Positions 7,104 to 64,000 of a stretch of DNA of 64,000 bases are shown one piece after another; the stretch's first letter is position 1, and the number at the start of each line of letters is the position of its first letter. The stretch comes from Tetrahymena thermophila SB210 (lineage: Eukaryota > Ciliophora > Oligohymenophorea > Hymenostomatida > Tetrahymenidae). Location of the stretch: assembly GCF_000189635.1 (NCBI RefSeq), contig NW_002476218.1, forward strand, positions 484,188 through 548,187, in the 5' to 3' direction. Below the pieces are notes generated by a model. That model did no database searches, was not told the origin of the DNA, and saw only the letters and a program-made list of their open reading frames with translations. Position numbers and translations under genes: made by a program.

Positions 7104-10100
7104 ATGGACGCATCAACATTAAGAGCTGGTACAACAAGAGCTAATATGTAAATGAGTTCAAAAGCTGGACTCAAATCTGGTCCTACTATGGCAGGGTAAT
7201 TAGCAATTTAAGATAGCAGATTATAAGCACATAGCTGAAACCATATTTGATTTTCAAAAAAGAAAAATACTTTAAATTTTGAAACTCACAGCTAATTTTT
7301 GTTTTTTGTATTGATTTTTGTATGCAGCTGGCATATTAATTAACAAACTACTAAATAATATAACAACTACAAAAATATACTAAAAATTCACCTAAAATGC
7401 ATCCTAGATGATAAAATTTCTTCTTTTAAAGTAAAAAGCTAGCAGGTGGTACCACTAGGTTGCCTTAGGGCAGTAAATCGTCCAAGCAAGCAGGATAGTC
7501 TAAGATGAAAACTACGGGATCAGAAAGAGATAATGAATATGTAATGGAGGGTAATGTTAATGTAACTCCTAAAAGGTAAAAAATTATTTTAAGACAGATT
7601 ATTTAAATATAAACTTAAAATTGATTACAAAAAATATTTTTTTGGCTTTCTAAGCACATTTTTCAAACAAATAGGCTTATAACATAGTAAATGAAAGAAT
7701 TAGCTTAAGAGTTTCAAAAGCACGAATAAGAATAAGCTGAAAAATAAAAGAAATTAAAATAGTCATTTAAACCACAAACTTCATTATTAGAATCCTCGAT
7801 GAGGAGTGCATAATAGAGCGTTGTAAGCATTTAAATAATATTTTGGTTTTATTTTAAATAATTAACAATAAATTTGCTTTTTTTTAGACATATTTTTTAA
7901 AAAATAAACGATTTGCAATTATTTTTGAATTACTATTCTATACAATTAATAGATTGCTCAAAATTTTTATTTTAATAGGATAAGAGTTCTGGCAGTGAAA
8001 ACAAAACAAGTAGCGCAAATATAAAGGAGTCTTCTATGATGGATAGTAGTAGACGTTCCGAAATATATTCTGAATCAGAAGAAGAATCTGTAAGCTTGTT
8101 TGTTCAATATTTTTAAGATATTTACAATTTAATTTCTACCTTTTAATGAATATCTTACAATAAATTTCAAATTTTTTGAGCTTAGATAAAAAAATAACTA
8201 TTATTTGATAAGTTAGCCAAAAAATATATAATAGATTTTATGAACTAAGTCTAATAGTTCAATACGATTTGAGCAAGTATTTAAATAATTAAATTTATTT
8301 TATAATAGAGACTTAAAGAGGAGCGTGAAAAGAAGGCAAAAAAGGCTAAATAACTTAGTGAAGACGATAAGGAAAAAGATGTCATAATCAATTTATAAGA
8401 ATCTGAAACAGAGATATTATTATATATGTAATAAACAAATTCAAATCATATGATTAATTAATATTATAAAATAAACAATAAAGTCCATCTTCATTAGTTT
8501 CAAGCTCATCTGTACAAATAAATTAAAACTAAATAAGGGATGAAAATACCAAAAACCCAACTGCAATTATTTTAGAAAGAAACCAAAAGTATGAATAACA
8601 TTGCTAAGATATTATTGGCAGTGATAAGTTTTCTAAGAGAGCTGCTTAAACATTTAAGTATGCTCCTAAGTAACAGTAATAGTAATCTAATAGAATTGAA
8701 AGAGCTGAGAAAGGTGTGTTTGCAGCTGTTTGGGATTTGTATGATGCATAACTATAAGAATAGTACAACGAATATGAATAACTATAAAATGAAATATAAA
8801 AAAATATTGATTTAGAGTTAAAGAAAGCTCTAAAAAATCCATTTTGCTTACTTCCTCTTGATGTTAAATCTATCAACTTACACTCTAGAGCTGAAGTACC
8901 TGGTGATACTCGTCTTTTGACTGAGAAAATGAGCAGTAAAACCTACAAGCCAGGACATACTGCTTCAGTAAATAATAATACACTTAATCCTTCATAAGAT
9001 GATACAGGACCTCGTGATTCTTCTTTCTCAAATTTGAAAGAGTATTTAATTTAATTTAAATAAAAAATTTATAATAATAAAATATTTAAAGCGTTTCAGG
9101 CACTAAACTAAAGAGACAGTTTGAAAGCTAAAATTTAGTGACAAAATCTTATGGTGGTAATAAGGTTCATCATGAGTAAATGCTTAAGTAACATAAAGAA
9201 ACATTAGAAATTTTAAAGAAAGAAGAATAAAAGCTGATTGAATAAAGACTTGAAAAAGTTAAAAATTAGATAAGTAAATTTAATCCTTATTAAGTTGTTT
9301 CTTACTTTTAATTAAATTATCAATTTTAAAATAAAAAGATGAGGAAGAACAAAAGATCATTTCTAGTGATTCTTTATCGACATATTTAAAATATGTTGAT
9401 AGAATTCTCAATCAAAATACTTATCATAAGTAATACATTTTGTATAGAAATTATCCTGAAGTCAAGATTCACAAAAGAGCTGATGATGAGGGTAACAAAA
9501 GATTCAACAATATGCGTATCAAGAGAATGAAGTAAGGTAATAATGAAGATGAAGATGAAGAAAAAGAAAAGAAAAAAGAAGTTTTAGAGTTCCTTTTCAA
9601 ATTTAATTGTGATATCACTTAGGATAGAACTGTAAGTTGTGCAGATTGGAATCCAGTTAATAAAGATTTATTGGCTTGTACTTACGGTGAACTTGATTTG
9701 AATGTTAACAGACAAGGTATGGTTATGTTTTGGACACTTAAGAACCCTAGCTATCCTGAAAGAATTATCAAAACTAAATCACGTAAATTTTTTAATAAAT
9801 AAAAATCTTACAGTGCAAATAAAATTTTAAAATATATTTTAGGTTTAACTAGTTGTAAATTTTCTGAGATGAATCCTAATTTACTTGCTACAGGAAGTTA
9901 TGATGGTATAGTAGCAATTTATGATATAAGAAAGAAGGGTAATCAACCAATCCTTTGTAACGATTAAACCGAAGGTAAGCATAGTGATGCCATTTGGGAG
10001 TTAAATTGGATTGGTAAAGGAAACAAAGGTAACGAAAAGGGAGAAAGCTTAGTCAGTATCAGCTCTGATGGTAAAAATTCAAAGATTTTTTCATCATTTA

Positions 10101-11068
10101 AGCTTTATTTTCATTTTCTTTTAATAAAATAAAAAATGAATAAAATAAAAAATATTTTTTATTGCTTAAAATTAATATTTAAATAATTTCAAATATGGTT
10201 TGATAATAATTTTAAAATACAAAAAGGTCGTATTGTTGAATGGAACATGAAGAAAGAATTAGAAAATACAGAATTAATGAGCCTTAAAAAGACATAAAAT
10301 CCTTCTAGCAAAGAACAAGCAAATGAAGGAACTAATTTTAGATAGGCAGCTGGTTTTTCTATGGACTTCATTAGGGGAGAATACTCTACTTACTTAGCTG
10401 CAACTGATGATGGACCTATTCATAGATGCTCTAAAAATTATTCTGGACAATATCTAGAATCGTACTTCGGACATACAGGACCTGTATATAGAGTTCGTTT
10501 CAATCCTTTTTGGTCAGACATTTTTCTTAGTTGTTCTGCTGATTGGAGTTGTCGCCTTTGGAATATTAAAGAAGAATAACCTTTAAGCACATTCTAGGTA
10601 AATAAAACTTTAAGTTACAAATTTTAAAAAAAATAAAAAATAAAAAAAAGTCCTTAGATCTTTAAGATGAAGTTATGGATGTAGAATGGAGTCCAAATTG
10701 TTCTACCTTATTTGCTAGTGTTGCTAAAGATGGAAGAATGGAGCTTTGGGATCTCACTAAAAATAATATGTTAGATCCATTTGCATCAATTATTCCTAAA
10801 AACAATGAACCTCCCTTCCCTCCTAAAACAATGGTAAGATTTGCATAAAGTGCTCCTGTTATTATTACTGGTGATATAGCAGGTGACCTCAATGTCTACA
10901 GATTACATGGTAAATTATCTTTTAAAAAATCTAATAGCTTAAATTTAATTCATTTTTATTATAGGTTATGAAGATTCCGATCCAAAAGTTTAACATGATA
11001 GGTTATTAAAATTACTATATCCTTCCGGATATACAAAAGGAGTCAAAGATACAACCGAAGTAGAGTGA
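7104..11068 (+). CDS. Axonemal dynein intermediate chain (DNAI1/IC78-like, WD40)
   Basis: The model is join(7104-7195, 7432-7575, 7675-7822, 7979-8089, 8309-8427, 8484-9041, 9092-9273, 9339-9782, 9843-10070, 10227-10597, 10651-10909, 10965-11068), giving 919 residues with all junctions in phase. The protein is a scaffold that binds dynein heavy chains in cilia. Residues 1 to about 280 are disordered and S/K/Q-rich. About residue 286 is VWDLYDAQLQEQ, matching the segment before the repeats in outer-arm IC1. About 550-895 hold WD40 repeats, with WTLKNPSYPE, GKHSDAIWELNW, GHTGPVYRVRFNPF, LSCSADWSCRLWN and AKDGRMELWDL. These fit DNAI1; DNAI4/IC138 is the main alternative. The start at 7104 is conservative; an ATG at 6979 joined through the 7025-7092 intron is also in frame. 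Confidence 0.92.
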
Positions 11069-11939
11069 TAAAAATGATAAATAATTTAAAAGTACAAATA
11101 AAATAATTTAAAATATATTTAGAAAGCAATAAATTAAAAATTAATTACCAACCCTAAGTTAAATTGTTTGTTTAATGTGCTTCTATTAAATTCCAAATGA
11201 AAGAAAATATGGAAGGACGAATAGAAGTATTATACAAAATAATTAAAATATTTGTAAGATATTTATATAGTTGTTTCATAGTTTATATTAATTTTCCTTA
11301 AAGATGAAAATAAATTTAAACAATCAATTTCAATACATTCTTCAAAACTAAATTAATCAATCATAAATTAATTCAAGAATTTTTATTTTTTTAAATTTTA
11401 GTTAATTATCTTTTTTATTACACAGAAAGTAAGTTAAGTTATTTATCATTTTTTTCTTAAATTAATTAACTACATTAAAAACTCGGCTTTTACAAGTCAG
11501 TTTTAAAAAACCTAAGCTGAGAAGGAATTTTTAAAATATGGAATTAAAAAAAGGAAAAAATAATGTTTGTTTTTCAAAAAACCATAATTAATCAGAATAA
11601 ATATTATTTATTATAATTTAGTAACATATAATCCCTTGAAATTTTATGGTTTGTTTGTTTGTTTGATTGTTAATAAGACCTAATTATGGTTGGATTATTA
11701 AAATGAAGTATTATATTGGAGTAAGAGCACTTTTCTAAATAAATAGTTCATTCTAGTAGACAAAATATGAAAAATAAGCTTAGATTTTTATAAGAAAAGT
11801 ATTTTTAATTTTAGAAATATAATTTTTTTTCTTTCATACATACAAAAAAAATAGACAGACATTAAATAATTATTTAACATTAATGTAAATATTTTAAAAA
11901 TACAAGCCTAGATATTTATTATTTCGATCATTAATTTTG
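11069..11939. other. Convergent intergenic spacer
   Basis: This AT-rich spacer lies between the 3' ends of the dynein gene and the first LVIVD gene. Similarity to the second duplicated unit starts only near 11890; nothing else was recognised. Confidence 0.6.
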
Positions 11940-14900
11940 TCAATCTTGAGGAGCGTTCTTATTTTTAATATAATTTAATTTAGAGTTGCAAAATTAAAAA
12001 AATAAAGTTAAAATTACTCTTTCTACATCTTTAGATTAATAATTATTGTCCATCTAATTTCTAAGAGCAGTATAACTTACATCTATATCAGCTTGAGTTT
12101 TATCTAATTCTTATTGATTTTTTTAACTATAAGATGAAATTTCTTTTTCTATCATTTATCTGTTCGATGTTTGCACTGAAGTCATTTCTTTATTTTAAAC
12201 TGAAAATAGTTCATCAACATAATCTTGACCAGAATCTCTAGGAATCAATAGAGGAGATTATTATTGTATAGATTTGAGCATTGGATTGTTATTTGAGGAG
12301 GTTCTATAAATTAAAGAGTCTTAATCCATAAATCTTTAAGAATTTTAATTATAATTCTAAAATAAAAAAATTGTTTAGATTAAAAAACCTTTAATGAAAT
12401 TTTTACCTTAAATTAGCTTGCTTTTTATTGATTCTTATCAGCTGCTAATCTTAAACTGTTCTAACTTTCTTAGTTGATAATTAAATTCATATTCTCAGAT
12501 ATGTTTAAATCATCAGCTAATTCAAAATTATCTTACTCTGCATTATATTCATCCACTATATTTAAAAAGAATTACTGAACAATATAGAAATCTTCATCAT
12601 ATATTCTGATTAGCAGCTAATCTATATCATTGTAAGATGGAGTGCCTTCTAAAATCAAAAATCCATTTTTAATATCAAATTTAAGCCAATGAGGTAGATT
12701 CATATTTTTTGACATACCAAATGGCATGTAATCCAATCCTATACATTTTCTTAATTTGATACACCATTTATCTTTTACTTCCCTAATTAATAAATTTATT
12801 TTTTTATTTATAGAAAAATTAAGTTAAATTATTTATTTACTTAAAAGCTTCAACAGAATGAACTTAAAAGGACTCTAAGTGTAGTGACTCTCCAACGCAT
12901 GGTTAAATAAAAGATGCTGCTTCAACTACTATTCCCAAAGCATCAGAATACAAATTTTATTTTATAATGTGAGGGTTAATTCCTAAACTATGTATGCTAT
13001 CTAGCTTTTATCCTTTTTGATTATGGATACTTAAGTCCAAAAAAACCTTTTAAAATTAATAAATTTTTAAGTAAAATTTAAATATTTTAATGGATTAATT
13101 ACTCTATTTATCATATCTTCGTTGATTTTAATATCAGAAAAAGGAACTTATTAATTGTATTTATCCTTTTTATTTGTGGATTGAATGTCTACATAGACTT
13201 TATACCAATCGTTTTCAGTATACTAAAAATTCTTTTTAGCATAATACTTCAAATAATTATAAATCGATAAAGCCTTGAAGTCATACTTAATAAAATCTCT
13301 AGCTACAATACCTTATAAGCATTTAAAGAACCTAGATTCTTTGTTTTAAAACTCTTTTATGTCGTTTTTTACAAAATATGTTTTCCCATTTAAAGTATAT
13401 GTAACTTCAAGCTAAAGCATGTCTCTATACATTTTTGTCATAGCTATTGATCCATCTTTTCTCAAAAAGAGCTTTTCCATCTATTTATTAAATAAAATTT
13501 TTTATTTAATTTTTGAAAATAATTTTTCGAAAATATTTTTTACAATAGTTTTATTTCTTTATGCAGGACTCATTTGTAAATTATAAACTGTTTTTTTAAG
13601 AAATTCGTCTTCATAATCCATACACTTCAACCTTCTTGTTTATTAGAATTTCTATATATTTTATTAATTGTTCTTTTCTATATCTTCATCTTTAATTGTA
13701 TTTGCACTTTCTTAATGGAAGTATATCTTCTTCTCTCTTTCTTCCTATACAAATAGATTTTCCTTTTACATAAGTTTGCTTTTGAATGAATAGTAAAGTT
13801 CATATGCCTTTTTAAGGTCATTGCCCATAATTGTAATTTATTTTCTATATAAGCAATTCACTTAGGCAGTTTCTGTTGAATAAAATGTTTTTTATTTAAA
13901 TACCAAATTTAATATATCACTCTTGTATTTGTAAACTCCAAAAACACCGATTATAGGTCCAAATATTTTAATCAGCAAATTTAAAATATAAGTAAAAGGG
14001 AGTATGCTTACAGATATTGAAAAATAATTAAATGCTTCACTATAACCATCACTAGCTCTTATTCTTAAATAATATGTATTTCCAAACTAACTATCAGTAG
14101 TTTTTCCAGACACTTTTAAATCTGTATTTGACAGTTGTAAAAAGAAATCTGAAGCAACAGGAATATAAACACCATCTTAACTAACTTACAAAGAATAGAT
14201 TAAAACTGGAGTGTCAGGGTCAATAAAACTATCCTTACTAAATGAAATTGATATATCTGCTTCTATAGCTACATTTCCATCTGAGAATTATGAGTTAACT
14301 TAAGATTGTAATTCTTTACCTTTTCATTAAAAAATTATTTTTTAGAAAACAAATATAAATTTCAATATTTATTCAATAATATTTTAGGAGGGAAGGGGTA
14401 TAAATTTATAGCATTTCTATTTAAATAAACTATAATTTAGTTCAATAAAATAAAAAAAATAAAACATTATAATTAAATAAATAATCCTAACATTTTTATT
14501 TTTAATTTTTTATGTGAGAACTGAAAATTAATAATTTATCTTAGATAAAATAGATTTAATTAATTGATTAAACAAATTTACCTTTAGTGGTTGGGATATT
14601 TAATGCTATAAAAGACAGTTAATCTACAATAAATGTCTATACTATATTATTATTCACACCATCTTCAACTGTGATGTTAACCATTTTATTAGTAGCATTA
14701 GCGAATAATGAAAAGTATAATTTTTTACTAATGACAGAGTTAACATTATCTTTTAAGCCTTCTATCTTAACCTAATTTTAAGCATCTGTATAAGATACTA
14801 TAACACCTTCAAATGCTTGTTTAACAAATAAGCCTGTGGTTTTTTCTACAAGCATAGTAAATGTAATTTAAGTAGATTTTGTTTAAATTGGAGATGTTGA

Positions 14901-17900
14901 ATTATTTAAATCTAATGTGAGAGAAGGAGCAATGTAAAACAAAATTGGGTTATAGTAAGTTCCTCTCATTAAAGTTAGTTTAACAAGCTAAAATAGCCTT
15001 TCCATATTACTTACTTAAAGATTTGGTATGTTAAAAGAGAAAGGCTAATTATGATCGAAAAATGATGTTACAAAATTATTGCTATCTAGAAGATACTACG
15101 AAATTAGATACTCATAAATGAGATTAGCTTATTAGGGCGTTGTTGTTAAACCTGTTAATTAATCATTATAAATAAAGGATGAAGTTTTGATAGGAACAGC
15201 TGTTTGGATAATAACTGTGTTTAAATTAGGCTATGTATAATTGGTGCCTAATCCATCCTTGACTACTTTTATTGTTAGGCTTTAAGAACTACTTGTATAG
15301 TCCATCCAATATGGAAGACTTTTCATTTCGTAATTATCATAGTAATAGACATTTATAATTGCCATAGATATGATTGGTTTAATGATAATGAAATTAAACT
15401 AAATAGTCTCACCTACCTTTTATATTGTAAAAATATTTTAATTTAATTGTCTTCTATATTAATAATTAAGAGTTTACTAATAAATTTTAGTCTGGGGGAA
15501 GAGTAATAAGCAAAGGTTTGGCTCCTGTTTGAGGAACTACCTGAGAAATTTGTGTATGTATAGTGACATCAGATTTTAGTGGTATTGTTCTCAATCCTGA
15601 ATTTGTCATAATAAATCCATATTTATTATCTAATGTAGTGCAAACTCCAAGTGCTTATTCTCTTTTAGAATTATAAGTGCTCATTAAAATAGGATTAGTG
15701 AGATCTCTGATATCAACGAGTGATAATTAACCATTTTCATAGTCAACTACAATTAAAAATTGATCATTGTACATTGGTTAAATATAGTTTGACCATCCTG
15801 TAAGTTAAAGTTTGCTTATAACTTTTAAATTTGGTAAATCCTAAATATCTAAAATTAGTAGTCCTCTAAATCCATCAAAGCAATAGAGATATTTTTAATT
15901 TAAAGAAACAATCATTCCTTCTGCTCCTGAAGTTTCAAGAGTATTCATTAGTTTTGGGGTTGTCTTGTCTTGGATATCTAGCACAAAATATCCCCAATTT
16001 CTTACAGATCCAATTACATATTTGTTGTCTATTTTATTTATTGGAAATTCAAATTAAAAACCACAAAGAATAAAAATCATATTTTTTTCATTAACTCAAT
16101 CAACTAAAAAATTATTTTTTTATAATATATTTCTATCTTTAAATTTCAAAATTGAACTAACGAACGAACAGCTTTTTAGCTAATTTTTTTAAGATAATTA
16201 AATAAAGATATCAAATTAATTATGATTCATATTTTACCATAACTCATGCAGAGATCCTTTATAGATCCAAAGATAGTTGGTGGAGGAAACCATTCAAATA
16301 AAACATTAAGAATTGCTGGATTACTAATATCATATAAGATAATACAGGAATAGTTACATTAAGCTAGATATTTTTTATCTTGGCTAATATATAGACCATC
16401 AGCATCTTTATAGCCATCAAAAGGGACTTGATAAATCAATTTGGGATTAGTTGGATCACTAATATCGTAATTATATGCTACATAAGGAGAGTCTGCTACT
16501 CCAACATACATATACTTTCCGTTCAAAACGGCTGCTATATCTATTGACGATATACTATCAGGAAAAATTTTTGATTAAAACTTCATGTGGTAAGGATCTA
16601 AGCTATAATCCATAATATAGACTCCATTCTCACCAAAGAAGCCATACAAATATTTGTCATCTTCAGAAACGTTGCATCTCCATTGATAATTAATATTACT
16701 TATAATAATTATTATTGATATTATAAATACTATGTGAAAAAATAGCTTTGAATCAAACTTACGAAAGTTGATCAATATCGGCTTGTTAGAAGTTATGCAA
16801 GTTTGGAAAGTAATTGTTGAAATTCGGAATCGCTTTAGTGAATATGATTATACTTTTAGCGTTAGCATAATATAGTTTCTGCTCATCTTAAGAAAGTCTC
16901 AAATCGAATCCTACTGCTTCAGATGGGATTGTCTAATAATAAACAGGAGATAGTTTGTTGCTGATATCTATAATTTATACACCTATAGATCTATGCCCTA
17001 CTAATAGGTAGTTATTATCTTGAGTAATTAAAGCTGAATAAACAGAAGGAGATGCAAAAGGCCAAAACTTCAAATTATAATTTATTTCTATATTTTATTT
17101 TAAATAAATTTAATAAAGAAAATGATTTTGCTAAAATGAATAAATACATGCTGGATAAAGTGCTTCATCTGTATCGTAAACATTTTAAAGATCAGTAATC
17201 CATATTCCATCCCAATTATCTATAACATAAGCATACCTTTTTTATAAATAATTAAGGGAAATAAGTAGCAATGATTTAAAAAATATATATTGATAATAGA
17301 TGCCAAAATATAAAATGGATTGGTAACTATAAATTTGTTAAATAAAAATTTTTTTAAATGAAATTTGTCTTTTAAGTGAAAATAATATTTTTTTTTTACA
17401 AAATTTAAAAGCTAACTAAACTAACTCTTTTTTATTCATTAGAAAAATTTATTAAACAAGTAAGTTTGTAAGTAAGTAAGTACCTTTTATCAGAAGTAAT
17501 TGCTAGAGCCCATGATTACCACAAAGTCGAACCTCCTGTTGTAGCAACAATCAATTAAAATTCAGGTACTTATTAAATTTTTAAGAGAACGAGTCCTTTT
17601 TTAGTTAAAAATTATTTGATTAAATTAAATGCTGTTTTTTTATACTTTCTAACAAATTCTTGTTGATTTAAAATACTATCAAATTAATTTAAACAATTAG
17701 AAGTAAATATATTTATGTAGATAGAAGCTTTTACCATTTATGTCATCAGCAAGATACAAAAAGCTATTATCATTAGCTATTACAGCTCTTCTTACTTGAG
17801 CTGAATCGCTGAAATAAGCACCTATCTATTAGGGATTAGTAATATCACTTATATTGTATGCTATCAAAGTTCCTAATGTACCATAAGCAAAAGCAATAGT

Positions 17901-18468
17901 TTCAGTTGAATCTAAGATTATATCTTAAAGGAATCCTTTTGAATATGTAGCCTATGAAATAAGCTTTAAGTCTTAAGAATTTCCATTTTACACATATTAA
18001 AATATAGAAAATTTATTTTAATGTGGTAGCATAATATATTTTCCATCTTAAGTAATGGCAAGCCCAGAAATAGCTTCTCCTTCAAATACCTTTTAGTATT
18101 CTTTTAAGTAGAAATAAAATAGTTTTTTTTTTATAAAAATTAAATTAAAATAATATAATTTATACTATTTTTTCTATTAAAAGTTATTTCATTAGTTGTA
18201 TATAATATTTACATATCTAGTCAGTTTTTCCATTGATAATAATTAAACCTACCACACCGCATGCTACGGCAACTAAATCTGCTTACTTGGCCATTTTAAT
18301 TGTTACTGCTGTTCCAAACTAACTTGTTAAGTCAAAATTCGCTAAAAAAAAAGGTGAAAATACTATATCTGTAACTGTACTTTCTGAAGCGGCTCTGCTA
18401 ATATATTATGATAAAATCAATAAAGTACCTACAAAAAAATAAATCAAATAGTTTATTTTCTTAAACAT
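11940..18468 (-). CDS. LVIVD-propeller/cadherin-like membrane protein, copy 1
   Basis: The start MFKKINYLIYFFVGTLLIL (18468) is a signal peptide. The stop is TGA 11940-11942, read through a 60-base intron that gives the C-terminus ERNAPQD. The exons, interrupted by many short introns (for example 18101-18212), total roughly 1.7-1.8 kaa. The N-terminal half has LVIVD-type propeller repeats such as GLLILDIQDLPNLKVI and QLSLVDIRDLTNPI. A cadherin-like (CADG) block follows, with FIDPDTPVLIYSLQ and YYLRIRASDGYS, then hydrophobic segments FSISVSILPFTYILNLL and FGPIIGVFGVY. Beyond those lies a second CADG-like module (LPHWLKFDIKNGFLILEGTP, LLIRIYDEDF) and a polar Q/S-rich tail. It is probably a surface or secretory-pathway membrane protein of a large ciliate family. 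Not every intron was fixed. Confidence 0.85.
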
Positions 18469-18995
18469 TTTTTTTAACTTTGTAGTTTGTTTGTTTGTTT
18501 GTTTACTTGCTTATTATACTTAATATTTGTTTTTAATTTATCAAAAGTAGAAATTACTATTTATTATTAATTATACTAAACAATTATTTCGCTAACTTAT
18601 TTTTTTTTAAACTAGCGATTTATGTTATATTAAGTAATGATTATTCATATTTTTTAATAAAAAGCATGATCATTAATTTATTTTTTATATTTTACATATT
18701 TTTATATTGCTTTTTATTGAATTAATTGCTAATAAATTACAATTCAAAAATCATTAGTTAGTTAGACCCTTATTTTATTTGAATTTTTATTTAATAATTA
18801 TTGCTTGTCTCATTTTTAAATAATATCAAAATATAGAACTGTTATTGTTATGAAATCTATATAATTAAAAATTGCTTTATTTTAATTTTATAACAACAAA
18901 TAACTGTATAATAATGGCACTAAGAGCTATTAATTATTTCTTTTTCTTTTTAAAAAAAGCTTAATTTAAATTTCTATATTTTTATTTGGTTTTTA
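18469..18995. other. Spacer upstream of LVIVD copy 1
   Basis: This contains the promoter side of LVIVD copy 1, with a GTTT microsatellite at 18485-18504. From about 18600 it resembles the 3' flank of CCDC146 (28000-28347), so it is part of the duplicated material. Confidence 0.6.
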
Positions 18996-19225
18996 AAATG
19001 AAGTATATTTTAAACCAGCCTCGAAGGATTTAAAAGGTGAATGCTTACCATACGGTTTAGGAATACCTATTACATAGGGATATAAGCAATTACTTTATGC
19101 TCTGTGAATGTTTTATTTGCAAAAGGGGGAAATTTTTTCCTAAAGATTCTCTTAACAAAAGTAAAACATACTTTTCTTAGTAGCTCTTTTTTGTATCAAG
19201 AACTATTTTTAAATATTTTACTTCA
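18996..19225 (-). pseudogene. CCDC146 C-terminal fragment (decayed), scar 1
   Basis: This matches the last ~80 codons of the intact CCDC146 gene (28348 upward). The stretch encoding NAYIP...GIPKPYG...PFKPFEPGSNMR is recognisable but carries substitutions and frame damage, and the original TGA stop has mutated. It breaks off at the same point in the CCDC146 coding sequence as scar 2 and is joined directly to a dynein fragment. Confidence 0.85.
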
Positions 19226-19545
19226 GATAAATTCTTGAGAGGAGTACATAATAAATAAAATGCTATAACCATTTAAATTATAATTAGATTCCATTTTAAA
19301 TATTAAGGAGCAATTTCCATTTTTTGAATTATTTAAATTTATTTAAAATAAATAAAATATTTACTTGAATTTTTAATTGCTACTCAATGTTATTAATAGA
19401 TTGCTTAAATTTTTATTTTAATAGGATAATAATCATTTATTGAAAATTAAATAATTAGCTCTAATATAAAGGAATCATCTATGATGAATGTAATAAACAT
19501 TCTGAAATATATTTTTAATCTGAAGAATAGTCTTTAATTATTTTT
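19226..19545 (+). pseudogene. Dynein IC exon 3-intron-exon 4 fragment (decayed), scar 1
   Basis: This matches dynein positions of about 7790-8090: the end of exon 3, the following intron (including TAGATTGCT...TTTTTATTTTAATAGGATAA) and exon 4 (ATATAAAGGA...TCATCTATGATG). The reading frame is broken. Exons 5-12 are absent, so most of the original 3' part was deleted. Confidence 0.85.
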
Positions 19546-19804
19546 TATTGTTAGATAATATCAAGTTACTATTATTTCTCATAATTGATACCAACTTGAG
19601 AAAAAAAATTTTAAATTCATTACTATTCTATTTAATTATTTCTCAAGTAGAAAAATTTTATTGAGTAGAATAATAAAAAAAAGTATCGAAATAGGTTTGG
19701 AGCATGGATAAAAAAATACAAAAAAAAAATGTTTAGACAATGATTTAATTTTTTAATGAAGGTAGAAATCTAAATTTTTAATGAAACATTTAATTTTAGA
19801 AAAC

Positions 19805-19845
<41 letters not shown>

Positions 19846-20050
19846 TAATTAAAAATTAAATTTTTGGTAAAAAAAATTATATACATTAAAAAAATATAAA
19901 ATTTGACTTAAAAACTTTTGCTTTGTATCAGAATTCTCCATACTACATATATTGTTTTTTAATTAATTAAACATAAATTCTTTCACTCTCAAACAGTTCA
20001 AAAAGCTTTATTTTTTCATTTTTAAAAGACTATTTATTTATTTTATTAAA
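19546..20050. other. Spacer between duplicated units
   Basis: This is an AT-rich spacer with no gene, holding a (TA)n tract at 19808-19841. It is the place where several kilobases of duplicated dynein sequence would be expected but are missing. Confidence 0.6.
19808..19841. repeat. (TA)n microsatellite
   Basis: About 17 perfect TA dinucleotides lie in the deletion region between the two duplicated units. Confidence 0.95.
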
Positions 20051-20102
20051 TCCAGCAATTAAAATTCCCTTGATGCCATATCATGGAATTTTAATTGCTG
20101 GA
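20051..20102. repeat. Perfect 18-bp inverted repeat, 16-base loop
   Basis: The left arm 20051-20068 (TCCAGCAATTAAAATTCC) and right arm 20085-20102 are exact reverse complements around a 16-base spacer. The right arm ends about 8 bases before similarity between the duplicated units begins. No copy was seen at the matching edge of unit 1. Confidence 0.95.
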
Positions 20103-20159
20103 AGTGCTATATTTTAAAAATACAACCTTAGCTATCTATAAGTTCGATGATTAATTTTA

Positions 20160-23100
20160 TCAATCTTGAGCAGCATTCTTAATTTAAAAATAATTTAATT
20201 TAGAGTTGAAAAACAAAAAAAAATAAAGTTAAAATTACTCCTTCTACATCTTTAGATTAATAGTTATTGTCCAGCTAATTTCTAAGAGCAGTGTAACTTA
20301 CATCTATATCAGCTTGAGTTTTATCTAATTCTTATTGATTTTTTTAACTGTAAGATGAAATTTCTTTTTCTATCATTTATCTGTTCGATGTTTGCACTGA
20401 AGTCATTTCTTTATTTTAAACTGAAAATAGTTCATCAACATAATCTTGACCAGAATCTTTAGGAACCAATAAAGGAGATTGCTATTGTATAGATTTGAGC
20501 ATAGCATTGGTATTGGAGGAGGTTCTATCAATAAAAGAGTCTTAATCCACAAGTCTTTAAGAATTTTGATTTTAATTCTAAAATAAAAAAACTGTTTTGA
20601 TTAAAAAACCTATAATGAAATTTTTACCTTAAATTAGCTTGCTTTTGATTGATTCTTATCAGCTGCTAATCTTAAATCGTTCTAACTTTCTTAGTTGATA
20701 ATTACATTTATATTCTCAGAAATATTAAAATCATCAACTAATTCAAAATTGTCTTTCTCTGCATTATATTCATCAACTATATTTAAAAAGAATTACTGAG
20801 CAATATAGAGATCTTCATCATATATTCTGATTAATAGCTAATCTATATCGGTGTTAGATGGAGTACCTTCTAAAATCAAAACTCCATTTTTCATATCAAA
20901 TTTAAGCCAATGAGGTAGAGTCATATTTTTTGACATACCAAATGACATATAATCCAACCCTATAAACTTTCTTAATTTTATGCACCATGCATCTTTTACT
21001 TCCCTAATTAATTAATTATTTTTTTTTAATTTATAGAAAAATTAATTTAAATTGATTGCTTACTTAAAAGCTTCAACAGAATGAACTTAAAAGAACTCTA
21101 AATGTAGTGACTCTCCAACACATGGTTAAATAAAAGATGCTGCATCAACTACTATTCCCAAAGCATCAGAATACAAATTTTATCTTATGAGGTGAGGGTT
21201 AATTCCTAAACTGTGTATGCTATCTAACTTTTATCCTTTATAATTATGGATACTTAAGTCCATAAAAACCTTTTAAAATTAATAAATCTGTTAGTAAAAT
21301 TTAAATATTTTAATGGATTAATTACTCTATTTATCATATCTTCCTTGATTTTAATATCAGAAAAAGGAACTTATTAATTGTATTTATCCTTTTTATTTGT
21401 GGATTGAATATCTACATAGACTTTATACCAATCGTTTTCAGTATACTAAAAATTCTTTTTAGCATAATACTTTAAATAATTATAAATCGATAAAGCCTTG
21501 AAGTCATTCTTAATCAAATCTCTAGCAACTATACCTTATAAGCATTTAAAGAACCTAGATTCTTTGTTTTAAAACTCTTTTATGTCGTTTTTTACAAAAT
21601 ATGTTTTCCCATTTAAAGTATATGTAACTTCAAGCTAAAGCATGTCTCTATACATTTTTGTCATAGCTATTGATCCATCTTTTCTCAAAAAGAGCTTTTC
21701 CATCTATATAAATAAAAATTGTTTATTTAATTGTTGAAATTAATTTTTTCAAAAATGTTTGTTACAATAGTTTTATTTCTAAAGGAAGGAGCCATTTGTA
21801 AATTATAAACTGTTTTTTTAAGAAATTCATCTTCACAATCCATGCGCTTAAGCCTTCTTGTTTATTAGAAATTCTATTCATTTTAATGATTGTTCTTTTC
21901 TAAATCCTCATCTTTAATTGTGTTTGCACTTTCTTAATGGAAATACATCTTCTTCTCTCTTTCTTCTTATGCAAAAATATTTTCCTTTTACATAATTTTG
22001 CTTTTGAATGAATAGTAAAGTTCATATGCCTTTTTAATGTCACTGCCCATAACTGTAATTTATTTTCTATATAAGCAATTCACTTGGGCAGTTTCTGCTG
22101 AATAAAATGTTTTTTATTTAAATACCAAATTTAATATATCACTCTTGTATTTGTAAACTCCAAAAACACCGATTATAGGTCCAAATATTTTAATCAGCAA
22201 ATTTAAAATATAAGTAAAAGGGAGTATGCTTACAGATATTGAAAAATAATTAAATGCTTCACTATAACCATCACTTGCTCTTATTCTTAAATAATATGTA
22301 TCTCCAAACTAACTATCAATAGTTTTTCCAGACACTTTTAAATCTGTATTTGATAGTTGCAAAAAGAAATCTGAAGCAACAGGAATATAGACACCACCTT
22401 AACTAATTTACATAGAATAGCTTAAAACTGGAGTGTCAGGGTCAATAAAACTATCCTTACTAAATGAAATAGATATATCTGCTTCTATTGCTACATTTCC
22501 TCCTGAGAATTAAGAGTTAACTTAAGGTTGTAAATCTTTACCTTTATATTCAAAAATAATATTTTAGAAATAAAATAAAAATTTCAATTTATATATATTA
22601 AATAAAATCAATTTTAGGAAGGAGGGAAGGAGTATAAATTTATAACATTTCTATTAAAAAAAACAATAATATTGCTGAAAATATAAAATTTTGATTATTT
22701 TAATAAAAATAATGAAAGCTCAGTAAAATTAAAAAAATAGAGCATTATGATTAAGTTAATAAGTAATCCTTACATTTTTATTTTTTAAAATGAGAACTGA
22801 AAATTAATTATTTATTTATTTTAGATAAAATAGATATAATTTAACAAATTATTTACCTTTAGTGGTTGGGACATTTAATGCTATAAAAGAGAGTTAATCT
22901 ATAATAAATGTCTATACTATATTATTATTCACACCATCTTCAACTGTAATGTTAACCATTTTATTAGTTGCATTAGCAAATAATGAAAAGTATAATTTTT
23001 TACTAATGACAGAGTTAACATTATCTTTTAAACCTTCTATCTTAACCTAATTTTAAGCATCTGTATAAGATACTATAACACCTTCAAATGCTTGTTTAAC

Positions 23101-26100
23101 AAATTAACCTGTGGTTTATTCTACAAGCATAGTAAATGTAATTTAAGTAGATGTTGTTTAAATTGGAGATGTTGAGTTATTTAAATCTAATGTGAGAGAA
23201 GGAGCAATGTAAAACAAAATTGGGTTATAGTAAGTTCCTCTCATTAAAGTTAGTTTAACAAGCTAAAATAGCCTTTACATATTACTTACTTAAAGATTTG
23301 GTATGTTAAAAGAGAAAGGCTAATTATGATCGAAAAATGATGTTACAAAGTTATTGCTATCTAGAAGATACTACGAAATTAGATACTCATAAATGAGATT
23401 AGCTTATTAGGGCGTTGTTGTTAAACCTGTTAATTAATCGTTATAAATAAACGATGAATTGTTGATAGGAATAGCTGTTTGGATAATAACTGTGTTTAAA
23501 TTAGGCTATGTATAATTGGTGCCTAATCCATCCTTGACTACATTTATGTTTAGACTTTATGAACTACTTGTATAGTCCATCCAATATGGAAGACTTTTCA
23601 TTTCGTAATTATCATAGTAATAGACATTTATAATTGCCATAGATATGATTGGTTTAATGATGATAAAATTAAACTAAATAGTCTCACCTACCTTTTATAT
23701 TGTAAAAATATTTTAATTTAATTGTCTTCTATTTTAATAATTAAGAGTTTACTAACAAATTTTAATTTGGGGGAAGAGTAATAAGCAAGGGCTTGGATCC
23801 TGTTTGAGGAACTACCTGAGAAATCTATGTATGAATAGTGACATCAGATTTTAATGGTATTGTTCTCACGCCTTTATCTGTTATAATAAACCCATATTTA
23901 TTATCTAATGTAGTGCAAACTCCTACTGCTTATTCTCTTTTAGAATTATAAGTGCTCATTAAAATAGGATTAGTGAGATCTCTGATATCAACGAGTGATA
24001 ATTAACCATTTTCGTAGTCGTCTACAATTAAAAATTGATCATTGTACATAGGTTAAATATAGTTTGACCATCCTGTAAGTTAAAGTTTGCTTATAATTTT
24101 TAAATTTGGTAAATCCTAAATATCTAAAATTAGTAACCCTCTAAATCCATCAAAGCAAAAGATATATTTTTGATTTAAAGAAATAGTCATTCCTTCTGCT
24201 CCTGAAGTTTCAAGAACATTCATTAGCTTTGGGTTTGACTTGTCTTGGATGTCTAGAACAAAGTATCCCCAATTTCTTACAGATCCAATTATGTATTTGT
24301 TATCTATTTTATTTATTGAAAATTAAAATTAAAAACCACAAAGAATAAAAATCATATTTTTATCATTAATTAATTAATTAATCAACTAAAAAATAATTTT
24401 TTTAAAATTTATTTCTATCTTTAAATTTCAAAATTAATTGAACGAATGAACGAACTAACAGCTTTTTAGCTAGTTTATTTTTCTGAAAAAATAATATTTT
24501 TTACTTAATTAAATAAAGTTTTCAAATTAATTTTCATTCATATTTTACCATAACTCATGCAGAGATCTTTTATAGATCCAAAGATAGTTGGTGGAGGAAA
24601 CCATTCAAATAAAACATTAAGAATTGCTGGATTACTAATATCATATAAGATAATACAGGAAAAGTTACATTAAGCTAGATATTTTTTATCTTGGCTAACA
24701 TAGAGACCATCAGCATCTGTGTTGCCATTAAAAGGTACTTGATAAATCAATTTGGGATTAGTTGGATCACTAATATCGTAATTATATGCTACATAAGGAG
24801 AGCCTGCTACTCCAATAACCATATACTTTCCGTACAAAACTGCTGCTATATCTATTGACAGTCCTGGGATATTAGGAAAAATTCTTGATTAAAACTTCAT
24901 GTGGTAAGGATCTAAGCTATAATCCATAATATATACTCCATCATCATCAAAGTAGCCATAAAAATATTTGTCATCTTCTGAAACGTTGCATCTCCACAAA
25001 TATTTTGTATTACTTATAAGAATTATATATATTATAAATATGATATGTAATAGGTTTGAATTAAAGTTACCAAAATTGATCAATATCTGTCTGTTAGAAG
25101 TTATGTAAGTTTGGAAAGTAATTGTTGAAATTCGGAATCGCTTTAGTGAATATGATTATACTTTTTGCGTTAGCATAATAGAGTTTCTGTTCATCTGAAG
25201 AAAGTCTCAAATCAAACCCTACAGCTTCAGATGGAATTGTTTAATATTAAACAGGAGATAATTTGTTGCTGATATCTATAATTTCTACACCTATAGATCT
25301 ATGTCCTATTAAGAGATAATTATTATCTTGAGTAATAATAGCTGAATAAACAGAAGGAGATGCATATGGCCAAAACTTCAAATTATATTTTATTTCTTTT
25401 GTTAATTGTAAATAAATTGAATTTAAAAAATGATTTAGCAAACACAAATACATGCTGGATAAAGTGCTTCATCAGTATCGTAAACATTTTAAAGATCAGT
25501 AATCCATATTCCATCCCAATTATCCATAACATAAGCATACCTTATTTATAATTAATGAAGGGAAATAAATAACAATTATTTGAAAAATATCTATTGATAA
25601 TAGATTCCAAAATATAAAATGGATGGATAGAAGTAAATTTTAATATTATTTTAATGAAATTTGTCTTATAAGTTAAGTAAAAATAATATTTTTTTTTACA
25701 AAATTTATAAGCTAACTAACTCTTTTTTATTGATTAGAAAAATTTGTTATACAAGTTATTACCTTTTATCAGAAGTGATTGCTACAGCCCATGATTACCA
25801 CCAAGTTGAACCTCCTGTTGTAGCAACAATCAATTAAAATTCGGGTACTTATTAAATTTTTAAGAGAACGAGTCCTTTTTTAGTTAAAAAATTATTTGAT
25901 TAAATTAAATGCTGTTTTTTTATATTTTCTATCGAATTCTTGTGAATTAAAATACTATCAAATTAATTTAAATAAGTAGAAGTAAATATATTTATGTAGA
26001 TAGAAGTTTCTACCATTAACGTCATCAGCAAGGTATAAAAAGCTATTATCATTAGCTATTACAGCTCTTCTTACTTGAGCTGATTTGCTGAAATAAGCAC

Positions 26101-26743
26101 CTATCTATTAGGGATTGGTGATATCACTTATATTGTATGCTATCAAAGTTCCTTTTGTACCATAAGCAAAAGCAATAGTTTCAGTTGAATCTAAGATTAT
26201 ATCTTAAAGGAATCCTTTAGAATATGAAGCCTAGGAAATAAGCTATAAGTCTTAAGAATTTCCATTTTACACATATTAAAATATAGAAAATTTATTTTAA
26301 TGTGGTAGCATAATATATTTTCCGTCTTAAGTAATGGCAAGCCCTTAAATAGCTTCTCCTTCAAATACCTTTTAGTATTCTTTTAAATAGAAATAAAATA
26401 GTTTTTTTTTCTTAAAATTAAATTAAAATATTATAATTTAAGTTATTTTTTCTATTAAAAAGTGACTTCATTAGTTATAATATTTACATATCTAGTCAGT
26501 TTTTCCATTGATGATAATTAAACCTGCCACACCGCATGCTACAGCAACTAAATCTGCTTACTTGGCTATTTTGATTGTTACTGCTGTTCCAAACTAACTT
26601 GTTAAGTCAAAACTCGCTAAAGAAAAAGGTGAAAATACTATATCTGTAACTGTGCTTGCTGAAGCGGCTCTGCTAATATATTATGATAAAATCAATAAAG
26701 TACCTACAAGAAAATAAATCAAATAGTTTATTTTCTTAAACAT
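20160..26743 (-). CDS. LVIVD-propeller/cadherin-like membrane protein, copy 2
   Basis: This is a close paralogue of the gene at 11940-18468 with the same start (MFKKINYLIYF, ATG 26741-26743), the same exon-intron order and the same end (AAQD before TGA 20160-20162). Signal peptide, LVIVD-type repeats, CADG-like block (YYLRIRASDGYS), hydrophobic pair and second CADG-like module are all present. Differences are scattered substitutions, for example GENGVYIMDYS in copy 1 against DDDGVYIMDYS here; introns vary more in length and sequence. I saw no frame-breaking change in the exons I translated, so both copies are probably functional, but I did not verify every codon. The role is unknown; it is inferred to be a membrane or surface protein. 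Confidence 0.83.
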
Positions 26744-27339
26744 TTTTTTAACTTTTTAGTTTATTTGTTTGTTTGCTTGCTTATTTTACTTAATATTTGT
26801 TTTTAATTTATCAAAAGTAGCAATTATTTTTATAATTATATTAAACAATTATTTCGCTAACTTATTTTTTTATAAAATTTTAAGAGAAATGTACTGATTA
26901 TTGATCATTAAATTTAATTTACCAATAAAGACAAATTCAGTGAAGAATGGAGTTGATACTAGCAATTTATGTTATATTATGAAATGATTACTCATATTTT
27001 ATTATTAAGTAGTATGATCATTAATTTTTTTTAATATTTTACCTATTTTTATATAGCTTTTTATTGAATTAATTTGCTTATTAATTACTATTTAAAATAG
27101 TTAGTTAATCCCTTATTATATTTGAATTTTTAATTAATTAATATTTTTTGCCTCATTTTTAATTAATATAAAAAATATAAATCAACTGTTATTGTTATGA
27201 AATCTATATAATCAAAATCTGATTTATTTTAATTTTATAACAACAAACTAACTGTATACAATTTATACTAAGAGCTATTAATTATTTCTTTTTCTTTATA
27301 AAAAAGTTTAATTCAAATTTCAATATTTTTTTTTAGATT
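26744..27339. other. Spacer upstream of LVIVD copy 2
   Basis: This is the promoter side of LVIVD copy 2. From about 26880 it resembles the sequence just downstream of CCDC146 (28000-28347), as expected if it is a duplicated CCDC146 3' flank. Confidence 0.6.
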
Positions 27340-27584
27340 TTTAAAATGTAGTATATTTTAAGCCAGTCTCGAAGGATTTAAAAGGTATATGCTTGTAATA
27401 TGGTTTAGGAATACCTACTTCATTAGGGATATAAGCATTTACCTTCTGTTCTATAAATATTTTATTAGCAAAAGGAGAAAATTTTTTCCTAAAGCTTCTC
27501 TTTACAAAAGAAAACTACACTCTTTTTAGTAGCTCATTTTATTAAGAACCATTTTTAAATATTCTACTTCAAATTCTTGAGTTG
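27340..27584 (-). pseudogene. CCDC146 C-terminal fragment (decayed), scar 2
   Basis: This is similar to 28380-28626 of the intact gene and to scar 1. Similarity runs to GAGTTG at about 27584 and then switches abruptly to dynein sequence. The coding frame is damaged and there is no upstream coiled-coil part. Confidence 0.87.
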
Positions 27585-27868
27585 AATTCTCAATGAGGAG
27601 TACAAAATAAATAAAATGCTGAAAGCATTTAAATTATAATTAGATTCCATTTTAAATATTATTTGACTTTTTTTTTAATAAATAAAATATTTAATTGATT
27701 TTTTAATTGCTACTCAATGTAAGAAATAGATTGCTTAAATTTTTATTTTAATAAGATAAGAATCATTTAATGAAAATTAAACAATAAACTCTAACATAAA
27801 CGAAACATCTATGAAGAATGTAACAGACATTCTGAAATAAATTCTTAATCAGAAGAATAATCTTTAAT
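27585..27868 (+). pseudogene. Dynein IC exon 3-intron-exon 4 fragment (decayed), scar 2
   Basis: The AATTCTCAATGAGGAGTACA start matches the end of dynein exon 3 near 7787. The intron and exon 4 remnants follow in order, ending near the exon 4 donor. The open frame is lost. Confidence 0.85.
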
Positions 27869-28347
27869 TTTGATTATTAAATAATATCAAGATACTATTA
27901 TTTCTCATAAATTGATACCAACTCAAAAAAAATTTTTAAATTCATTGCTATTCTAGAATTTTAAATAAAATTTTTTTAAAGAAAATAGTTAAAGTCACAT
28001 AATTTAATGTAAAATATGGTAATTATTAATATTTAAATATAATTTATCAATCAAACAAAATACAACTCAGAATAGAGTTGAAAATAGCAAATTATATTTA
28101 TAATCAGAAATAAACTCTCATTTTATATTATTCTTTTACTAATAAATAAAGTCATTTTTTGTATTAACTTATTTTTAAATTATTTTCGTTGAATTAGATG
28201 TTGAAAAAAACTAAATAAGATAATTAATCCTTTTATTTTTTGTATTTTTAATTTTAAAGTTAATAAATATAACAACAAATTAACTACATACTAATTATAA
28301 TAAGTTCTATTAATTAACAATTTTTAGTTTAAAAAGAAAATGTTTAT
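27869..28347. other. 3' flank of CCDC146
   Basis: No gene was found. About 28000-28347 is the original copy of the flank that also appears at 26880-27300 and 18600-18950. A third LVIVD gene would be predicted here by the duplication model but is absent. Confidence 0.6.
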
Positions 28348-31300
28348 TCAAATTTCTATATCCTTTATTGTTGGATTTTTAAAGTGGCGCATATTTGAGC
28401 CAGGTTCGAAAGGTTTAAAAGGAGCATGCTTGCCATATGGTTTAGGAATACCTATTTCGTCTGGGATATAAGCGTTTACTCTATGTTCTGCGAATGTTTT
28501 TGTGGCAAAAGGAGGAAAATTTTTTTCTAAAGCTTCCCTTTATAAACGCAAGCTACGCTCTTCTTAGTAGCGTTTTTTATCGCGAACCATTTTTAAATAT
28601 TCTACTTCACATTCTGGAGTTGGAGGAAGATTCTATTCAACGCGCTGCTTTGATTCATCTAAGGCACCTACTAACTCATCTCTTTCTTATTAAAGTTTTA
28701 TAGAAGTTGCTTAGAACATAGATAACTCTGAAATAGATGCCATCATCTTTTTAGTGATATCTTTTAACTTGGCTTGGAAATTGTTTAATTTTTCAGATAA
28801 TTCGAGAGTATTTTAACGTCCATCTAAAGCCTATTTTCTGAGTTTTTCAGAAAAATTTGTAATTTCATCTAAAATCAGTTCTTTTTCCAGCAACTGTTCT
28901 TTTTTGTTATTTAAACGCTCTTCTAGAACACCAATCTTAGTGTCAAGAGCTTCTTAATCAGGATCTTCTCCTTTCAAATCTCTATATCTGTATTCGTTTG
29001 TTGGATTTTCTAACTGCTCTGAAAGCTCAGCTTCAAGTTGCTTGTTTTAATTAAATAATTTTTAAACTCTCTATCAATCTAAACTAATAAAATTTAATTA
29101 AGAAAACTGAAAAATTTTACTTGTTATTTTTTTAATTCATTTTGTAAATTGACTACTTCGTCAGCTAAAACAGGAACATCTTAAATTTATTTCCTAGAAA
29201 CATCAATTTTTCTCATTGTTTCTTGAATAGTAATTTTTATCATACGAACTTCATCCTCAAGTTTTTTAATCTCTACTTCACCACTTCTTAAAGTAGTTTC
29301 TTGGTTGTTTGATTTTTCATACATTATACACAATTCATCATTCCTGTCAATAAGCTAAACACCAGTAAAATTACGTGATTCTTAAGCTTTTTCATACTTT
29401 CTTCTCAGATCCAAACTTTCGTTCTCTAAAGAACGAATAATCATGTTCAGCTTTTCTATTTCATTTATATTTCTATCTACCTATTCTTTCTTAGCTCTAC
29501 GAATAAATTCTTAAGCATTCAATTCTGCTTGAGCTCCATCTCTTTAATGTTTTTGTATTTATAGAGTGTGTTGATACTGAATTAAGTTTTAGTGCTTCTC
29601 TTGATATTCATTCTTAAATATTTCAAGTTCATTCTAAGATATTTTGTTTTATTCTTTAACTTCTGCCAAATCTTATTATGTACTCTAAATGTAATTAACA
29701 TATTTATTTCTTTCTGCCTTGACAGCTTCATAAAGCACTTTGCAGTTGTTTCTTTCAAATTTAATCTCTTGATATTTCTTTTCTAAATCTTTAATGGCAA
29801 GCTCTTTTATTTTTAACTGTTATCTAGTTTCTCTAACCTCTTATTTTAGATTGTAAAAATCGCAAAATTTTCATTAAATTAATATTTTACCATGCATAGC
29901 TTGAGATGCTTTACGAGCCATAGACTCTCTCATAGCTGTAAGTCTTTTCACTTTTTTAAGGGCATTAGCCTCAAATTCTTCTCTAGCTTAGAGTTGTTAT
30001 TCTAAATCTTAAATTTGTTTTTGAATTTTTTCATATTCACTTTCTTTGCTTGAAATCTTATCCTTAACTCTTCTGGTTCTAAATTCAATTAACTTTGTAT
30101 CGTCTTCAACATTTTATTCCACTTCGAGCATTTTTTCTCTTTCATATTTAAGTTCGGCTTGCTCTTTAGTGTATTTATCTATTGAAATTTCAAATTCCCT
30201 AATCATATTACGAAAATCATTCTTCTTTTTCTCTAATTGCTTGTACATTTTTTTAGTAACATCAATCTCTTTTTTTTTCTAATTTATTTCTTCATTCATT
30301 TTCTTCTTTTGGATTTCATATTCATTGAGCTTAACTTAGAGATCATATTTTCTTTGCTTAAGTATTTTCATCTCTTCTTCATTAGCAGTATACCTGCCCT
30401 TTTGTTTGGTATAATCTTCCTAATAGTTAAATTATTGTTTAACTTATGTAAGCAAAAATAAACATTCATTTTTACTTGAAAGATTTGGTTTTCCCTTTTT
30501 AGATTTTTATTGTCTTCTGCATTTTAATCTACAAGAATCTTTAATTTGCCATTTTTATCCTTTAATTCTTCTATTTCTTTATCTTTTTATTTATTAGTAT
30601 CCTCTACTAACTTCAAATCTCTTTCCATCATCTTCTTGCCACTTTCGAGCATATCTGCCTTTTTTCTATGGCGTTCAGGCTCATCTTTATTTTGTAAAAA
30701 CTCATTTTATAATTTTTCTTACTCTTTTATATATTCTTCATTTTCTTTTTTTAGTCTTTAAATCTTCTCTAAATTCTCATTCAATTGTTTTTAAGTCTTA
30801 TCAAAGTCTTGTTACTTCTAATTACATTTGCCTTTCAATGTTTCAATATCTTATTTAAGCTTTTCTTCTTCTTAGTAAATTTTCATCCTATTTAAAATAC
30901 ATATTTGAAATATTTTCAGAAATAATAAACATTTTTGGAAATAATTTCATTTTTTAAATGAAAATAAACAAAATTTATTTGTTTAAAAACTCTAATTTAA
31001 TTTAAATTTAAAAATGTTTGTTATTCATTTTATAGGTAGATATTGTAAAATGTATTTAAATACAATTTTAAAATAATTTATAAAGAGAGACAAGTGATTT
31101 TTTTATTTAAAAATAATTATGCATTAATTAAATTACCTTGCTTCTTTTTCAAGTTCTTAAATTTTCATATTTTCTTCAGTTAATTCTTGGCTTTTTCTTT
31201 CAGCCTCTAGGTTCATTTATTCTACAATTTTACGTTCCAATTCTTCTTCTGCTTCAGCTTTTTTTACTTAGCTTTAAGCCTTTTTAACTTCTTACTCTAT

Positions 31301-31552
31301 TTCTTCACTTTTTAACTAAGCTTGCTCATACTCATCGCGTTTATATTTCAATTCTGCTTTTAATTTATTCGCTTTGGCAGGTAAAACTTTTACATTTTAA
31401 TAAGTCTTAACTATCGCATCATGCAATGTTTAAAATTTAGTTTTATAATCATCATATTTTTCATAGGATATTCTATTCTGAGCATGTAAATTTTAAAGCT
31501 AACCTAGGATGAGATTACCCTTTAAATCACTCAGATTATCTCCATCAGACAT
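28348..31552 (-). CDS. CCDC146: Coiled-coil ciliary/basal-body protein CCDC146 (MBO2)
   Basis: CCDC146/MBO2 is a coiled-coil protein of cilia, flagella and basal bodies; the Chlamydomonas mutant swims backwards. The start is MSDGDNLSDLKG (31552). Introns at 30888-31136, 30420-30475 and about 29840-29890 join in phase, and one more lies near 29060-29130. Almost the whole length is heptad coiled coil. Two signatures identify the family: FTGVQLIDRNDELCIMYEK in the middle, and a C-terminus NAYIPDEIGIPKPYG, PFKPFEPGSNMRH, ending IKDIEI before TGA 28348-28350. The length of roughly 950 residues equals the vertebrate protein. Two decayed copies of its tail lie downstream at 18996 and 27340. Confidence 0.93.
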
Positions 31553-63640: not shown

Positions 63641-64000
63641 GGGGTTGGGGTTGGGGTTGGGGTTGGGGTTGGGGTTGGGGTTGGGGTTGGGGTTGGGGTT
63701 GGGGTTGGGGTTGGGGTTGGGGTTGGGGTTGGGGTTGGGGTTGGGGTTGGGGTTGGGGTTGGGGTTGGGGTTGGGGTTGGGGTTGGGGTTGGGGTTGGGG
63801 TTGGGGTTGGGGTTGGGGTTGGGGTTGGGGTTGGGGTTGGGGTTGGGGTTGGGGTTGGGGTTGGGGTTGGGGTTGGGGTTGGGGTTGGGGTTGGGGTTGG
63901 GGTTGGGGTTGGGGTTGGGGTTGGGGTTGGGGTTGGGGTTGGGGTTGGGGTTGGGGTTGGGGTTGGGGTTGGGGTTGGGGTTGGGGTTGGGGTTGGGGTT
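63641..64000 (+). repeat. Telomere, (GGGGTT)60
   Basis: Sixty perfect GGGGTT hexamers run 5' to 3' towards the right end, the G-strand orientation of a right-hand Tetrahymena telomere. There are no variant repeats. The junction with unique sequence is TAAATAATCT then GGGGTT. Confidence 0.99.

Follow-up and report, generated by a model that had tools for sequence, protein, structure and literature searches.

The window, the whole 64,000-nucleotide stretch of DNA analysed here, is the last 64 kb of Tetrahymena thermophila contig C282. Its final 200 bases (63801–64000) are pure TTGGGG telomere repeats, and we take the window as the end of a somatic chromosome. Part of the telomerase gene of this genome agrees with a PDB telomerase chain, itself from T. 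thermophila, at 101 of 102 aligned residues. Reading frames were translated with the ciliate code, and genome-wide searches were run on the 101-Mb genome (445 contigs). The locus is bounded by two intact genes. On the left lies a dynein intermediate chain gene, for which the best PDB matches are dynein axonemal intermediate chain 4 (DNAI4) and IC138. On the right, on the opposite strand, lies a coiled-coil gene with its stop codon at 28348–28350, which matches CFAP58 at 5e-16. Because a far better CFAP58 match (2.8e-38 over 108 amino acids) is found on contig C91, the window gene was taken as the partner, CCDC146, the name it carried in the original prediction. A CCDC146–CFAP58 pair has been reported from Tetrahymena axonemes (PMC10541116, PMC11151096). 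A second CCDC146-like gene, 65% identical to the window gene, is present at C247:160302–160946; as an internal outgroup, this paralogue had no dynein or LVIVD match in 20 kb of sequence beside it (tblastn, E 1e-3; five dynein queries, one of them in a wrong frame). Rfam gave no match at the gathering threshold in window positions 1–40000.

Self-comparison of the window and alignment resolved the stretch, from left to right, into the full dynein gene, LVIVD gene A, CCDC146 fragment A, dynein fragment A, a repeat element, a hairpin, LVIVD gene B, CCDC146 fragment B, dynein fragment B, the first bases of the element, a gene-less LVIVD 5' flank and the full CCDC146 gene. The features are listed below, where each scar is a decayed CCDC146 fragment joined to a decayed dynein fragment.

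7104–11068, plus strand: intact dynein intermediate chain gene, DNAI4/IC138-like (PDB matches, frames; start codon inferred by eye)
11889–19629, no strand: block A of the proposed second copying (self-comparison, block alignment)
11940–18468, minus strand: LVIVD gene copy A, reads through (gene model; Pfam LVIVD and Beta_propel above cut-off)
18889–19224, minus strand: decayed CCDC146 3' fragment, scar A (self-comparison, alignment, site patterns, shuffles)
19224–19240, no strand: joint A, overwritten by a 10–14-nt deletion (alignment)
19240–19560, plus strand: decayed dynein fragment of scar A, from the end of exon 3 through intron 3 and exon 4 into intron 4 (self-comparison, alignment, site patterns, shuffles)
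19619–19930, no strand: MITE-like multicopy noncoding element (profile hit 19615–19925, inverted half; other genomic matches)
19931–20051, no strand: intervening stretch (similarity to dynein and spacer no higher than for shuffles)
20052–20101, no strand: hairpin bordering block B, its 17-bp arms perfectly complementary (exact-pair search, arm search, folding)
20108–27954, no strand: block B of the proposed second copying (self-comparison, block alignment)
20160–26743, minus strand: LVIVD gene copy B, reads through (gene model; comparison with A)
27236–27584, minus strand: decayed CCDC146 3' fragment of scar B, which runs up to the founding joint (self-comparison, alignment, shuffles)
27584–27894, plus strand: decayed dynein fragment, scar B (self-comparison, alignment, shuffles)
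27944–27954, no strand: first 11 bases of the element, scar B (left-end match; too short for a profile hit)
28001–28267, no strand: third unit, 5' flank of the lost LVIVD gene (28001–28132 matches 26876–27006 at 72%; z 11.4)
28348–31552, minus strand: intact CCDC146-like gene (CFAP58-family matches, frames; start codon inferred by eye)

Adjacent copies lie in the same orientation. In the self-comparison, 11889–18611 repeats as 20109–26876 (90.8% identity) and 18611–19630 as 26958–27955 (83%). The dynein gene recurs in part in both scars (7791–8093 as 19230–19537, 74%; 7777–8120 as 27571–27894, 71%), as does CCDC146 (28268–28612 as 18889–19228, 77%; 28268–28622 as 27236–27584, 79%). The remains of three units are present, of which the third is without an LVIVD gene and keeps just its flank beside the intact CCDC146 gene. 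The units do not each hold the whole segment: most of dynein is absent from units 2 and 3, and LVIVD from unit 3, absences that we read as later deletions. The original prediction of a tandem duplication spanning all three genes stands with amendments: three units rather than two have left remains, and the scars contain just ∼330 bp of dynein. The remaining ∼3.7 kb up to LVIVD, which the duplicated dynein copy would once have included, is in no extra unit. We sought this lost part in 19931–20051, using dynein and the dynein–LVIVD spacer, and similarity was at chance level, with 54 to 197 of 300 shuffles reaching the score depending on target and scoring; being no better than shuffles, the stretch allows nothing of the lost part to be shown. 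Unmasked BLAST with 19931–20102 yielded weak hits on both strands, of which the best was to the spacer in the same direction (E 6.6e-7, 66.7% over 102), and given the shuffles for 19931–20051 this candidate remnant was not used.

A direct switch from decayed C-terminal CCDC146 into decayed dynein exon 3/4 had been predicted at two places, and both the repeats and the shuffles confirm it. Alignment z-scores, each from 300 dinucleotide shuffles, were 35 and 40 for the dynein pieces and 75 and 83 for the CCDC146 pieces, with the third-unit flank at 11.4; none of the 300 shuffles attained the local alignment score observed for the scar pieces, which thus match both genes beyond chance. Scar B retains ∼90 CCDC146 codons with the stop and, from dynein, the last 33 nt of exon 3 followed by intron 3, exon 4 and the beginning of intron 4 (splice sites judged by eye). 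A genome-wide search with window 19100–19400 returned two places, scar A itself and scar B. The joint of scar B was read by eye to one base, with CCDC146 continuing to 28622, dynein starting from 7790 and one G shared, at window position 27584. In scar A, two alignments are about equally good at a 10–14-nt deletion, so that the breakpoint lies within 19224–19240 and is unreadable there. The predicted joint at 27584 is accordingly exact and that at 19225 falls inside the uncertain interval; the expectation that the breakpoint would be legible to within a few bases in both scars holds for scar B but fails for scar A.

The edges of the founding duplication are 7790, in dynein exon 3, on the left and 28622, in the end of the CCDC146 coding sequence, on the right. 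Whole edge genes occur at the outer ends only, with intact dynein at the far left and intact CCDC146 at the far right; a dynein WD40 exon has one strong match on contig C282, and all CCDC146 matches within the window, other than the gene, are partial. Because a head-to-tail duplication leaves such geometry, together with a joint of the right edge to the left edge, the predicted head-to-tail reading is upheld.

Both LVIVD genes, which encode beta-propeller membrane proteins, read through. A piece of copy A scored 29.7 bits against the LVIVD repeat model (PF08309; curated cut-off 20.2), and the hits listed by a genome-wide search with this model did not include either gene. In a Viterbi gene model, copies A and B share their exon structure, with proteins of 1715 and 1696 amino acids; the model leaves the last exon of A whole, but it is probably divided as it is in B. 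The proteins are 91.8% identical over 1690 aligned residues, with Ks 0.138 (0.116–0.161), Ka 0.039 and Ka/Ks 0.286 (0.220–0.352), and on this sequence evidence the extra copy looks still functional. The silent-site difference is 12.6%. Identity between A and B is 87.9% in the 11 introns (161 gap columns set aside), 88.4% in the 5' flank (104), 86.3% in the CCDC146 scars (13) and 88.8% in the dynein scars (34). Since silent sites, introns and scars differ alike (11–14%), one second copying explains both the LVIVD copies and the scars; the LVIVD genes appear younger than the scars in the self-comparison (91% versus 83%) because coding sequence is under selection and because of indels. Across the block, identity ranges from 78% to 99% per 150-column window and is lowest in an intron, with 71% in the last 28 columns at the block end.

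The element in scar A, which like the hairpin was missed in the original prediction, is short, noncoding and multicopy with inverted repeats, as a MITE is. A query around the window copy gave 70 matching pieces (its own and the scar B rows included) and a better copy at least 86, from 170 candidates of which 40 were scored; these are not copy numbers, because inverted-repeat halves often list both strands of one place. The family is present in the somatic genome, and its inverted-repeat halves bear GGTTCGAAACC-like motifs ahead of T runs, which we take to resemble a Pol III B box. Rfam searches with five element copies gave nothing at E 1, and copies showed no excess close to contig ends: 12 of the 28 places lie within 50 kb of one, where 11.5 would be expected. 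The left end of the element, ATTGCTATTCT, is matched at 9 or more of 11 positions in 18 of 28 other aligned copies. Elsewhere in the window it has a single exact occurrence, at the homologous position of scar B, where the 11-nt end gave no profile hit up to E 10. This placement suggests that the element was probably in place before the second copying. The deletion that took the third LVIVD gene begins inside the element.

We consider it very likely that the history of the locus comprises a founding head-to-tail duplication, arrival of the element, a second copying and loss of the third LVIVD gene. A germline segment of ∼11.4 kb (size inferred), from dynein exon 3 through LVIVD into the CCDC146 coding end, would have been duplicated head to tail, the founding joint having formed through end joining over a one-base overlap. 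The outer dynein and CCDC146 genes would stay whole while the inner partial copies decayed, a harmless geometry. The MITE-like element may then have come to sit in the decaying dynein fragment, after which the block of LVIVD, CCDC146 fragment and dynein fragment would have been copied again with a period of ∼8.3 kb, either through unequal crossing-over among the units or through another local duplication. Finally, the last unit would have lost its LVIVD gene in the deletion starting inside the element, if the deletions took this order.

The two routes for the second copying fit about equally well. In the local variant of this history, to which we give slightly less than an even chance, the second copying took place as an independent duplication that created new edges at 11888 and 20107, instead of through unequal crossing-over between whole units. 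Block homology begins abruptly at 11889/20108, the block edge adjoins the hairpin, and unit 2 need not have lost 3.7 kb in a deletion of its own; however, no test result favours this route over crossing-over near the LVIVD 3' end, and the sequence after 20107 in the source copy is deleted from the third unit, leaving that edge invisible. In 150-column windows, no older patch marking a crossover was found at the LVIVD 3' end or along the block from 11889. The hairpin (20052–20101) lies just left of block B and folds far better than shuffles (z −7.6), and its exact pair was found only here in the genome. Its single arms, with up to two mismatches, hit 50 places versus 21 for a reversed control, with no clear family. 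It may be a repair product or a weak point. The broader idea that element or hairpin-forming DNA in the germline broke repeatedly at these edges, setting both the second copying and the unit 3 deletion, and that similar elements help to multiply LVIVD genes elsewhere, seems to us improbable.

That the founding duplication happened once and was then copied again, as originally claimed, is supported by the sequence patterns of the two scars. Sites at which A and B agree against the parent outnumber those at which A alone or B alone differs, both in the CCDC146 part (42/22/16) and in the dynein part (55/17/13); in the third-unit flank the pattern is 50/9/6, the flank standing apart from A and B at 50 sites. 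The scars also have indels in common, one of three bases and two of one base in CCDC146 coding sequence and two of one base in dynein exon 4. Over 767 gap-free columns, the scars differ from each other by 12.8% and from the parents by 25.7–27.4%, a corrected distance ratio of 2.34 (bootstrap 1.93–2.91) that counts the third-unit flank as parent of the scar flank and probably understates the age ratio, because the parent genes are under partial constraint. For the noncoding flank by itself, a hand calculation gives a ratio of ∼4, from an AT-rich alignment with 110 gapped columns. Two independent duplications, each breaking by chance in the same two genes and leaving one scar, might find room in the scar A joint, which cannot be read to the base. 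With independent origins the difference between the scars should be about double their difference from the parents, whereas half is observed, and such origins do not account for the shared derived sites and one-base indels; because the scars share frameshifts and derived bases, they point to one founding event copied later, and we regard separate origins as very unlikely.

It is similarly hard to credit that the scars are in use, as a chimeric transcript or regulatory piece under selection. They do persist next to two intact LVIVD genes, yet both parts carry frame-shifting indels, A–B differences in the CCDC146 part are spread over codon positions (10/86, 14/86 and 15/88) as in neutral decay, and the scars have diverged to the same degree as introns and silent sites. 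An assembly artefact, a chimeric or misplaced join, can be practically dismissed, since a false join would hold parental sequence and the scars differ by 26–27% from the parents and 13% from each other.

The locus is a clear case of an ordinary, known kind of process, with an LVIVD gene copied and the joints decaying. In the genus Tetrahymena, tandem gene copies are reported to be common, and ectopic recombination in the germline nucleus has been invoked for new genes (PMC6564038); unlike this locus, that account, where it counts tandem genes and treats LRR exon shuffling, shows no joint inside two neighbouring genes. For tandem repeats around chromosome breakage sites in the T. thermophila germline, a two-step model has microhomology-dependent end joining make the first copy and unequal crossing-over act later (PMC5182062). 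Our locus fits this model, although a one-base overlap is weak microhomology, and the example there has units of ∼120 bp around a breakage site as against a gene block of 8–11 kb here. Literature searches on duplication breakpoints, on Tetrahymena with LVIVD, and on Tetrahymena with beta-propeller, cadherin, gene family and tandem found no paper. Beyond the original prediction, the third-unit remains, the equal divergence of LVIVD genes and scars, the MITE-like element in the scar and the edge hairpin are new. A single 21-kb stretch lets us put in order the founding joint, the decay common to both scars, the element, the second copying and the loss of one copy; it is a compact record of a ciliate germline multiplying a gene, with steps that can be dated relative to one another.

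Searched genome-wide, LVIVD DNA gave 21 matches, of which the two long ones are copies A and B and the other 19 are at most 222 bases. One LVIVD exon matched 134 places; among the strongest 76 (E ≤1.7e-22), 49 fall into 17 same-strand groups with gaps of up to 15 kb. The window's pair is one of these 17, and the other LVIVD-like genes resemble it in forming same-strand tandem groups. If those groups have like joints, they would reveal what starts such arrays. The LVIVD-like family is large and often tandem, for example on contigs C174, C60, C94, C40, C65 and C255. Elsewhere in the window, within long minus-strand frames that gave no Pfam match at E 0.01, a further direct repeat pair (56170–57213 and 57919–58962) is 68% identical.
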